DNA from: Reyranella sp.
Lineage (GTDB): Bacteria; Pseudomonadota; Alphaproteobacteria; Reyranellales; Reyranellaceae
Length of the DNA: 11,463 bases
NCBI GenBank assembly: GCA_016780605.1
Contig: JADHLS010000079.1
Coordinates: 1 to 11,463 of the forward strand
Direction of reading: 5' to 3'
Below, piece by piece: positions 4,950 through 8,313 of the stretch; positions within the stretch are counted from its first letter, which is position 1, and each line of letters begins with the position of its first letter. The translations under genes were made by a program, and so were the position numbers. A model generated the notes under the pieces. The model saw only the letters and a program-made list of their open reading frames with translations, was not told the origin of the DNA and made no database searches.

Positions 4950-5068
4950 GAGCCTTCTCCCAAAGGTTACAGGACGGTAACTATCTGCGTCTCCAAACCG
5001 TGATCAAGTAACCGTTGTCAGCGCCATCGCCGCGAGGGACCTTTGCCGTCCTGCCAAGGGAGGGAACG
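4950..5068. promoter_or_regulatory. Divergent spacer between UPF0145 and GST genes
   Basis: This 119-bp spacer must hold promoters for both directions. It contains three related short elements: GGTTAC at 4965-4970, GGTAAC at 4976-4981 and GTAACC at 5008-5013. The first and third are reverse complements, and the first two form a GTTAC/GTAAC dyad around six bases. They could be regulator half-sites. I see no convincing -35/-10 pair. GCGAGGGACCTTT at 5032-5044 matches 13 bases of the 7421/7790 repeat and may be a fragment of it. Confidence 0.3.
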
Positions 5069-6276: not shown

Positions 6277-6297
6277 CAAGAAACGACGGAGGAGATG

Positions 6298-7395
6298 ATG
6301 AAGCGTGGCGTTGTGGCGGCGGTGGCCGCCTGTCTGAGTGCGTTCGCGTTTTCGTCAGCCTCCGTCGCCGCCGACCCGCCACAGTTCCAGGTCGATCCGT
6401 TCTGGCCCAAGCCGTTGCCCAACAACTGGCTGCTGGGCCAGGTGGCGAGTGTCGCCGTCGGTCCGGACGACCATGTCTGGATCCTGCAGCGGCCGCGCTC
6501 GCTCACCGACGACGAGAAGGGCGCGACGCTGAAGCCGCCGCGCAACAAGTGCTGCGTCCCTGCCCCGTCGGTCATGGAGTTCGATCCCGACGGCACCTTC
6601 ATCCAGGGCTGGGGCTTCGGGACCATCACCCCATGGGTCGCCAACGAGCACGGCATCCATGTCGACAAGGCGGGCTTCGTGTGGATCGCGGGCAACGCGC
6701 CCAACGACAGCGCCATCTTCAAGTTCACCAAGGACGGCAAGCCGGTGATGACCATCGGCAAGCTGGCCCCGAGCGGCGGCAGCAACGACACCACGCTGCT
6801 TGGCCGGCCGGCCGACATCCAGGTCGACATGGACGCCAAGGAGGTGTTCGTGGCCGACGGCTACGGCAACCGCCGCGTCATCGTGTTCGATTCGGAGACC
6901 GGCGCCTTCAAGCGCTACTGGGGCGCCTACGGCAACAAGCCCAACGACGACAAGCAGGCCGCCTACGATCCGGCCGCGGCGCCGTCGCAGCAGTTCGCCA
7001 ACCCGGTGCACTGCGCCAAGCCCTCGAAAGACGGTTTCGTCTATGTCTGCGACCGCACCAACAACCGCATCCAGGTGTTCAAGAAGGACGGCACCTTCGT
7101 GACCGAATGGTTCTACGACAAGCCGACGCTCGGTGCCGGCGCGGTGTGGGACCTGAACTTCTGGCCCGACGCCGACCAGACCTGGCTGTTCAACATCGAT
7201 GGCGAGAATAACCTTTTGCGCATCCTGCAGCGCAGCGACGGCAAGGTGGTCGGCGGCTTCGGCCGCTCGGGCCGCCAGGCCGGCAACTTCCACTGGGTGC
7301 ACAGCATCGCCGTCGATTCCAAGGGCAACATCTACACCGGCGAAGTCGACAACGGAAAGCGCGTGCAGAAGTTCAAGCCGGACCGGACACCGTGA
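6298..7395 (+). CDS. Exported NHL-repeat six-bladed beta-propeller protein
   Basis: About 365 residues. A signal peptide is evident (MKRG, hydrophobic stretch to about residue 24, cleavage after SVA before ADPPQ), so a periplasmic site is expected. The mature protein repeats blade-like units ending in VWI, VFVADGYGNRRVIVFD, VYVCDRTNNRIQVFKKDGTF and IYTGEVDNGKRVQKF, the NHL pattern shared with the lyase domain of peptidyl-glycine alpha-amidating enzymes. An adjacent Cys pair occurs in NKCCVPAP near residues 85-86, with more Cys in HCAKPS and YVCD. ATG at 6298 is preferred over 6295 because GGAGG (6288-6292) is then five bases upstream. It is 21 bp after the VOC gene. NHL propellers can be scaffolds or lactonase/lyase-like enzymes; no specific activity is assigned. 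Confidence 0.88.
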   Translation: MKRGVVAAVAACLSAFAFSSASVAADPPQFQVDPFWPKPLPNNWLLGQVASVAVGPDDHVWILQRPRSLTDDEKGATLKPPRNKCCVPAPSVMEFDPDGTFIQGWGFGTITPWVANEHGIHVDKAGFVWIAGNAPNDSAIFKFTKDGKPVMTIGKLAPSGGSNDTTLLGRPADIQVDMDAKEVFVADGYGNRRVIVFDSETGAFKRYWGAYGNKPNDDKQAAYDPAAAPSQQFANPVHCAKPSKDGFVYVCDRTNNRIQVFKKDGTFVTEWFYDKPTLGAGAVWDLNFWPDADQTWLFNIDGENNLLRILQRSDGKVVGGFGRSGRQAGNFHWVHSIAVDSKGNIYTGEVDNGKRVQKFKPDRTP

Positions 7396-7420: not shown

Positions 7421-7449
7421 TGTCATCCCGAGCGCAGCGAGGGACCTTT
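7421..7449. repeat. Left 29-bp inverted repeat of the GIY-YIG unit
   Basis: A 29-base sequence containing ATCCCGAGCGCAGCGAGGGA. Its reverse complement occurs at 7790-7818 with a single mismatch. It begins 25 bp after the NHL gene stop. Read on the minus strand it encodes the residues KGPSLRSG and the TGA stop (7423-7425) of the repaired GIY-YIG frame. The half palindrome GAGCGCAGCGAG resembles widespread intergenic repeats of alphaproteobacteria (recalled, not searched). Confidence 0.9.
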
Positions 7450-7738
7450 CGCTGCACCGGGGTCGTTTAGATCAGCCCATGTCGGGTTCGACGCCTGAAC
7501 AAGAGCGTCCTTTTTGGCGCGGCTCCAGCCTTTTATCTAGCTTTTCGCGACCGATGGCCTCGTCGATGTATTGGAACTCCTCGACGTGGACCAGGGTGTT
7601 CACCCGGTATCTGCGGGTGAAAGAACCACCGCGACCATCGCCGTGGTCGGCAATCCGTCTCTCCAAGTCATTAGTCACGCCGACGTACATCACGTTCCGG
7701 CTGACGTTGGTCAGGATGTAGACGTAGTAAGCGTGCAT
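7423..7738 (-). pseudogene. GIY-YIG nuclease family gene (UPF0213/YhbQ-like), frameshifted
   Basis: The start ATG at 7738 follows GGAAGGG by three bases. The protein opens MHAYYVYILTN (the 'GIY' strand), then MYVGVTNDLERRIADH (the 'YIG' strand with conserved Arg and His), FTRRYRV and EAIGREK with the likely metal-binding Glu65. Just after this the frame goes wrong. As sequenced it ends at 7472 after 88 residues with an unrelated tail. Dropping one base between 7531 and 7540 restores KGWSRAKKDALVQASNPTWA, the family's normal C-terminal helix, then DLN and a stop at 7423-7425 (104 residues). Removing the A at 7539 gives REKQIKGW, the best family match; removing one base of the four-T run 7531-7534 gives REKLDKGW. 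The active-site half is intact, so this may be a recent mutation, a recoded gene or a sequencing error. Confidence 0.8.
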
Positions 7739-7789
7739 TGGCCCTTCCGTCTCATAAACAAGACGGTGGCCAGGCCCGTTCCGTTACAT

Positions 7790-7818
7790 AAAGGTCCCTC
7801 GCTACGCTCGGGATGACA
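7790..7818. repeat. Right 29-bp inverted repeat of the GIY-YIG unit
   Basis: Reverse complement of 7421-7449 except at base 7804 (A where the left copy predicts G). It lies about 50 bp upstream of the GIY-YIG start and 30 bp from the 3' end of the small exported-protein gene, in the convergent space between flanking genes. The 7396-7848 stretch contains only this unit and short linkers. Confidence 0.9.
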
Positions 7819-7848: not shown

Positions 7849-8313
7849 TCACTTCTGCGGCTCGCTGATGTATCTGTCGAATTCGGCGTCCAGTTCGGCG
7901 TCAATGGCCTTGGCATCCCGCATGAACTGACCCCAGGTTATTTGACCTGCAATCAGGCGCTCATAGTTGGCATCTGATTGGGCCTGGGAGACAAGCAGGG
8001 CGGGGATCATTGCCGCATGTGCCCCGGCCACTTCCAGCGCGAATCGATGACAAGGAATGATGTAATCGCGAAGCAGGATCCGCAGCTGCTGCGCCTCCTC
8101 CGCCGTAGCCTTGTCCGTGCTGAAGACGATGTCCGGCGAGGCTCGCGAGCCGAGTTTGTGCCTCAATGCCAGAAAAGGAGGGCTGGCGTTCAGCTTCGCC
8201 TGGCATTCTGCCAACGCCCGGCGGGAACCTTCGTGAGAGCGCTGCGCCGTGGCGGTGCCTGGAATGAGGGCACACACCACCAGAAAGATCAGAACGCGAG
8301 CAATAGTCATCAT
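7849..8313 (-). CDS. Small exported protein, function unknown
   Basis: 154 residues that I do not recognise as a named family. The N-terminus is a good signal peptide (MMTIARVLIFLVVCALIPG, cleavage near ATA before QRSHEG), so the mature protein of about 130 residues is probably periplasmic. It has two cysteines, Cys37 and Cys88, which could form one disulfide. The rest looks helical, with an acidic C-terminal segment ITWGQFMRDAKAIDAELDAEF that recurs in small secreted or lipoprotein hypotheticals of alphaproteobacteria (recalled). There is no lipobox Cys at the cleavage site. AAGGAGA lies about seven bases before the first of two adjacent ATG codons. It is 56 bp downstream of the HpaB-like gene on the same strand and may share its transcript. 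Confidence 0.75.
   Translation of the reverse strand: MMTIARVLIFLVVCALIPGTATAQRSHEGSRRALAECQAKLNASPPFLALRHKLGSRASPDIVFSTDKATAEEAQQLRILLRDYIIPCHRFALEVAGAHAAMIPALLVSQAQSDANYERLIAGQITWGQFMRDAKAIDAELDAEFDRYISEPQK

Follow-up and report, generated by a model that had tools for sequence, protein, structure and literature searches.

The window, by which we mean the whole 11,463-nucleotide stretch of Reyranella sp. DNA analysed here, contains a small gene of the GIY-YIG nuclease type lying between two inverted copies of a 29-nt repeat (Table 1). The two arms are 340 nt apart and 97% complementary, with a single mismatch that falls at the variable loop base, and they head the list of inverted pairs returned by a repeat search of the window. 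When the 29-mer was written with N at the loop position and allowed up to 3 mismatches, it matched the window twice, at these two arms, and 200 shuffles gave no match. Both copies carry a TGTC tag. An earlier note on this DNA had described a GIY-YIG gene enclosed by 29-bp inverted repeats that differ at one base, and that description is accurate, with the open reading frame matching PF01541 (GIY-YIG) at E 3.5e-15.

Table 1. Features of the repeat-enclosed unit and its neighbours in the window
Feature	Position	Strand	Remark
Left REP-like repeat	7421..7449	+	TGTC head outward
GIY-YIG nuclease ORF, 88 aa	7472..7738	-	frameshifted near codon 66-68
Right REP-like repeat	7790..7818	-	TGTC head outward, inverted relative to the left copy
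Whole unit, gene within a head-outward REP doublet	7421..7818	.	spacer 340 bp, against 9-12 bp in gene-less doublets
NHL beta-propeller protein, left neighbour, outside the unit	6295..7395	+	flank in the empty-site comparison
Small protein, right neighbour, outside the unit	7849..8313	-	"exported" is the label of the earlier note

The right-hand neighbour has no Pfam match. Two further observations belong to the window itself. At 2053-2166, in an intergenic stretch, lies a further palindromic doublet (CCTCACCCTGAGGAG...CGTCTCGAAGGGTGG plus its inverse) whose type differs from that of the unit, and CTCGAAGG or CCCTGAGGAG repeats resembling it flank GIY genes at four other loci (L122, L126, L129, L130). 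At 5013-5044, adjoining the start of a GST gene, lies a partial match to the 29-mer (its GCGAGGGACCTTT end), which is possibly a repeat remnant.

The nuclease gene and its protein

PF01541 is the sole domain found in the window protein, in which no HUH/Y1 transposase domain was found, and its closest named loci are those of Reyranella. Members of the GIY-YIG superfamily are recognised by two tyrosines, an arginine, a glutamate and an asparagine; among 150 relatives of the window protein, Y4, Y15, R25, E62 and N81, which we take to be these catalytic residues, are conserved at 0.95-0.99 and, together with the PF01541 match, they place the family in the superfamily. Within the window gene the frame shifts near codon 66-68, the Asn region is lost through this frameshift, and the conserved C-terminal segment continues in another frame, which enters the left-hand repeat and terminates there (KGPSLRSG-stop). 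Repeat-encoded C-terminal residues also end seven of the ten relatives that were fetched (two others also look frameshifted), and the common length of relatives is 104 aa. Because the C-terminal part sits in the other frame, and relatives end in the repeat, the window copy is probably broken or decayed, or else the MAG sequence is wrong at this point. This frameshift was beyond the reach of the earlier note.

We modelled an intact relative (P0004, pLDDT 88.7), and the folds nearest to the model are UPF0213 (1zg2, E 5e-5), Slx1 (E 8e-3) and, more weakly, a UvrC domain (E 0.2). Among solved structures, PDB 1zg2 and 1ywl are the sole sequence matches with E <= 0.01, and UPF0213/YhbQ-like GIY-YIG proteins have both fold and length in common with the window family. 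The label "UPF0213-type", which the earlier note had attached to the gene, is therefore apt at the level of fold and distant homology, but no NCBIfam family matches the window protein. To judge from the model, a structure-specific nuclease of this sort would suit a hairpin target. A defence-system reading was also considered and set aside, PADLOC matching neither of the two proteins scanned.

The repeat, its hairpin and its doublets

The fold of the repeat was examined in 49 distinct repeats sharing the core GANCGNAGNGA, for which the reversed-pattern control gave 1 hit. A 5-bp outer stem is fully paired in 30 of the 49, where 500 shufflings of the 3' arms gave 3.8 on average and never more than 10; an inner pair covaries (G-C 36, A-T 8, C-G 4, other 1), and in the middle of the loop all four bases are found. 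In the predicted DNA fold, 4-5 bp are followed by two G.A mismatches that form an internal step, then by 2 bp and a GNA loop of three bases; GCGNAGC is an unusually stable DNA mini-hairpin. Folding energies of single sequences were not below those of shuffles (z -0.2 to -0.9).

That the repeat is a dispersed palindrome, as the earlier note had supposed, is borne out by the window's own assembly (G000, 4.34 Mb, 61% complete), where its 23-base core occurs in 22 copies at up to 3 mismatches and the reversed control in none. All six gene-less doublets read in this assembly have the + - arrangement, with TGTC heads outward and tails 9-12 bp apart, and several apparently single repeats adjoin a variant partner. 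Since the arms so often stand in head-outward doublets, the gene unit can be described as a doublet in which the 9-12-bp spacer has been exchanged for a gene. The window motif is present in 26 of 41 genomes, its own included (25/25 of the genus and 1/16 of the others, with 0 for the control pattern), and within the genus there are between 1 and 334 copies per genome, counts that at 2 mismatches include some of a sister repeat type. A generic form of the repeat is found in 15 of the 18 genomes behind the loci that match the window protein, with 0 control matches, and one Lachnospiraceae genome has 184 copies of it. Close pairs are head-outward in 13/13 cases in G022, 13/14 in G001 and 5/5 in G000. 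In G015, a Reyranella genome that is 99% complete and has 49 repeat copies with no GIY match, ten of the 15 close pairs have the opposite (- +) geometry and five are head-outward; another genome, G014, has 147 window-type copies and no GIY match of at least 80 bits.

Copies of the repeat can lie close to the gene. In the single-contig Reyranella genome G022 (locus L080), 35 of 37 copies are within 300 kb of it (expected 3.8), in the region C1:2.45-2.82 Mb. In G016, 6 of 20 copies are near the gene (expected 2.2), and two of these six are the gene's own flanks. Clustering around the gene is therefore not general, being strong in the former of these two complete genomes and unclear in the latter. 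At one G016 locus (L071) a GIY gene is flanked by two repeats in the same orientation, of a TTCC/GGAA stem type, with no inverted pair.

The window's repeats share with the CGTC REPs (Di Nocera 2013, PMC3733652) the CGTC/TGTC head, a stem that begins with AT, the doublets in opposite orientation and the concentration in Alphaproteobacteria. According to that paper, CGTC REPs are found mainly in Alphaproteobacteria and include Neisseria dRS3 and Rickettsia RPE-4 and RPE-6, are defined by an 8-9-bp stem with AT at the first two positions, a 4-5-nt loop and a CCA-like tail, and form a superfamily apparently without a dedicated transposase, whose mode of spread was left open. The window repeat departs from this description in its stem, which is of 5+2 bp and includes a tandem G.A step, and in its tail, which is CTTT; with a predicted fold of 4 bp, the G.A step, 2 bp and a 3-nt loop it falls outside the stem and tail definition. 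The repeats of some other units (L216, L226, L197) resemble that definition by eye, and CGTC or TGTC is visible in the flanking repeats of many more, again by eye and uncounted. By their sequences, then, many of the repeats that flank GIY genes look like members of the CGTC-REP superfamily, and the window's own fits in its tag and its doublets.

Flanking repeats, protein lineage and empty sites

The earlier note had proposed to test whether inverted copies flank such GIY-YIG genes far more often than other genes. They do, in loci that are the best matches to chosen queries rather than random GIY genes, and with a strong flank defined as an inverted-repeat score of at least 20. In a non-redundant pool (matches lying within 60 bases of an end left out, and the removal of redundant proteins taking 181 to 176), strong inverted repeats within 300 bp enclose 86 of 176 GIY matches, against 2 of 201 control ORFs drawn from the same loci; the controls are at least 100 aa and at most 3 kb long and keep clear of both the GIY gene and the locus ends. 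At 90 of the 176 matches a strong flanking repeat is absent. In Alphaproteobacteria the score of at least 20 is reached at 61 of 113 GIY matches (one match near a locus end dropped, some units on the same contig counted twice) against 3 of 1604 random intervals of the same loci. A class-wide sample gives, among the matches listed, 22/57 flanked against 8/1140 controls, all eight from one locus. Most further matches in the genus were fetched, two at contig starts being left out. Four of 30 matches are flanked in Bacteroidota and one of 29 in Clostridia, with 0/600 controls each and one match dropped from the comparison as a whole. By a structural test, three of the five strong matches in Clostridia have head-outward REP hairpins on both sides. 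The 24 weak Clostridia matches, presumed to be YhbQ-like proteins, have no flanking REP hairpins (0/24), unlike the window unit, and are a weak control in that their control intervals are also REP-free. Thus the association of GIY genes with inverted repeats is general in the sampled Alphaproteobacteria and weaker in Bacteroidota and Clostridia. A strict structural REP finder, requiring five perfect outer pairs, was rejected as too strict because it misses the window's own repeats; summed over seven groups, it still gave 47/235 against 10/4700, gene positions being approximate in Bacteroidota and at the weak Clostridia matches.

Across 85 units (score of at least 20, no stop, at least 60 aa), protein similarity and repeat similarity are correlated with a Mantel r of 0.48, where 2000 permutations reached 0.12 at most; in the 40 units of the Reyranella subset r is 0.67, with null values of up to 0.24. 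Thirty-three units share their genome with a paralogue, and for these the repeat belonging to the nearest protein from another genome is the more similar one in 26 cases and the less similar in 4, with 3 ties. Repeat type tracks the lineage of the GIY protein, not the host genome, and as the repeat goes with the protein, several GIY genes and several repeat types are found side by side in one genome (G005 and G012, for example).

In addition, whole units come and go between relatives. The earlier note had suggested looking for an empty site at the junction of the NHL gene and the exported-protein gene, and one exists: in a related genome (G004), the counterparts of the NHL protein (93%), of the exported protein's gene (50%) and of HpaB (93%) follow one another as they do in the window, and neither a GIY gene nor a repeat lies among them. 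In another (G012), a decayed unit occupies the position that the unit has in the window, and the exported protein finds no match. In Azospirillum lipoferum 4B a unit lies between sufB and sufC, flanked by whole doublets, and it is missing from A. ramasamyi, A. oryzae, B510 and A. thermophilum. Seven of 11 related Sphingobium plasmids match a unit-bearing stretch over its whole length. Among the other 4, TomTYG74 and TomTYG64 (L238, L239), which have no unit, carry in its place a single palindrome of the unit's own repeat that looks like its two outer ends joined, which may be a collapsed unit or a pre-existing repeat. Sinorhizobium Ak57 has a unit, and K101 has no GIY gene but does have repeat-like pieces; three Shinella records have a unit, which H4-D48 and zoogloeoides XJ20 do not. 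A tblastn search of the empty stretches at these polymorphic sites gave no GIY remnant. Units are, in short, polymorphic among relatives at five sites, namely the window and four plasmid sites, with the direction of change not polarised at the window. The spacers at empty sites have diverged, so none of the sites read gave an exact junction or a junction clean enough for a target site or duplication. The two findings that the earlier note named as refuting its repeat-spreading system, repeat pairs no commoner around GIY-YIG genes than elsewhere and a unit fixed in all relatives, were both looked for and neither was obtained; the system is thus partly supported, with the part of the nuclease in the spread a proposal. 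On the Novosphingobium plasmid pNL2, a direct repeat of about 53 bp brackets a unit (L227, 1760-1812 and 2370-2422), and it occurs once in the related plasmid ES2-1 (79% and 81% matches).

A REPIN-like reading and its rivals

The earlier note had drawn an analogy with RAYTs and REPs, and it is an apt one, since a gene lies between inverted copies of a dispersed palindromic repeat. Both systems have palindromes that are dispersed, tagged at one end and arranged in doublets, and in both the repeat can supply a stop codon to the gene between its inverted copies; the difference is that REPINs and RAYTs have a GTAG tag and an HUH/Y1 (IS200-like) transposase, in place of which we find YGTC and a GIY-YIG nuclease, and no RAYT transposase domain. 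Free-standing GIY-YIG homing endonucleases share the nuclease fold and the pattern of presence and absence with the window unit, which, unlike them, involves no intron or intein, lies between genes and is enclosed by dispersed repeats. The third relevant system is Ssn, reportedly described in Nature Communications in 2025 as a GIY-YIG family that cleaves single strands at the repeats belonging to it, with Neisseria as the first case. Neisseria Ssn is said to act on a repeat with hundreds of copies in the genome and to modulate transformation. A small GIY-YIG protein with a dispersed repeat as its partner is common to both systems; the description of Ssn reportedly concerns its cleavage and its effect on transformation, and not a polymorphic unit enclosed by repeats. 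One of our loci (L203) has a relative in a Neisseria gonorrhoeae record (48% over 94%), with CGTCATTCCCGC repeats around that GIY gene, which is presumably ssn. The pairing of nuclease and repeat is thus probably already known for this one family. Among the literature matches listed, judged by titles and the openings of abstracts, we found none tying GIY-YIG proteins to REP, REPIN or CGTC repeats, and none for an enclosed polymorphic REPIN-like unit or for a tie to the whole CGTC class.

We favour, at a little better than even odds (about 0.55), the reading that we are dealing with a second kind of REPIN-like replicator, in which a small free-standing GIY-YIG gene lies inside a doublet of its own CGTC-type repeat, and we infer that mobilisation is by an Ssn-type nuclease. 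Each repeat would fold in single-stranded DNA, be it the lagging-strand template, gaps or incoming DNA, into a YGTC tag, a 5-bp outer stem, the tandem G.A step, a short inner stem and a GNA loop, and the nuclease would recognise the folded repeat and cut it hydrolytically at the tag or close by. Where two repeats stand head-outward, both tags would meet at the base of one long hairpin, and we propose that cutting there would free or expose a doublet-sized strand, which repair could then copy elsewhere; no strand-transfer step is known for GIY-YIG nucleases, which hydrolyse DNA. The gene-bearing doublet would be the autonomous form and doublets with 9-12-bp spacers the non-autonomous one, and the frameshifted copy in the window would today either rely on another copy or no longer function. 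In favour of this reading are the flank counts, the doublet geometry, the covarying stem, the match between repeat and protein lineage, the different repeats of the Y1_Tnp genes, the conserved residues, the nearest folds and the polymorphic sites. Against it weigh the GIY nuclease's chemistry, the diverged spacers with no clean junction, the repeat-rich genomes G015 and G014, the 90 matches with no strong flank, the weak signal in Clostridia and Bacteroidota, the folding energies, the clustering that was clear in one genome of two, and the choice of loci by best match.

The strongest competitor, which we nevertheless hold to be unlikely, is an Ssn-type system without self-mobilisation, in which cutting of single-stranded DNA at dispersed repeats modulates DNA uptake or recombination, the repeats spread by recombination and selection, and the gene is flanked by repeats simply since it is located among its own targets. 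The reported action of Neisseria Ssn, the homologous Neisseria gene amid its repeats, and the repeat copies without a GIY match in G015 are all consistent with it, but on its own it leaves unexplained both the enclosure by an inverted pair oriented like the gene-less doublets and the presence or absence of entire units.

It is more improbable that a RAYT or other transposase moves the repeats and that the GIY gene is a passenger, inserted into or captured by a doublet. The doublet geometry does resemble that of REPINs, and Y1_Tnp genes are present in 13 of the 26 genomes searched, with two in the window's own. Yet at 12 of 16 Y1_Tnp loci, which doubled as a positive control for the flank method, the inverted repeats (score of at least 18) are all of other types, the window motif is found at 0 of the 16 loci in the same genome set, and repeat type tracks the GIY protein across genomes. 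We therefore rejected a RAYT as partner of the window-type repeat, the Y1_Tnp genes in the same genomes carrying repeats of other types; PMC3733652 likewise reports that, in CGTC-bearing species, CGTC units flank no RAYT or other IS200 transposase. Most Reyranella Y1_Tnp genes (L140-L153) are flanked by repeats of their own, several of the GGACCGCGGGCCTCCAGGCCCGCTCATG type.

Very improbable, too, is a nuclease that acts as a host-side cleaner, removing REP hairpins or cruciforms, with the repeats as substrate and not cargo. Slx1, a branched-DNA nuclease, is indeed among the close folds, but a cleaner gene needs no repeat-enclosed, polymorphic positions, and window-type repeats are commoner, rather than scarcer, in genomes with a window-type GIY gene of at least 80 bits, although this association is weak (10 versus 15 genomes, one-sided p 0.013 with kinship ignored). 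Finally, the idea of a small gene sitting by coincidence between two intergenic terminator-like hairpins, which the hairpin-forming repeats and their position between genes in the window might bring to mind, is refuted as a general explanation by the flank counts for GIY matches and controls and has practically no chance of being right.

Beyond the window, it is a tentative suggestion, at somewhat less than even odds, that the CGTC REPs do have dedicated enzymes, namely the small GIY-YIG nucleases, and that these constitute a second REPIN-type class, unrelated to RAYTs and spread over several phyla, that would copy its repeats by a hydrolytic, structure-specific nuclease and host repair in place of a transposase. 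With a gene inside CGTC-type repeats whose lineage predicts the repeat, the question of how these repeats spread becomes directly testable with one protein and one oligonucleotide. If the nuclease does move the repeats, this would be a REPIN-like population sustained without a transposase.
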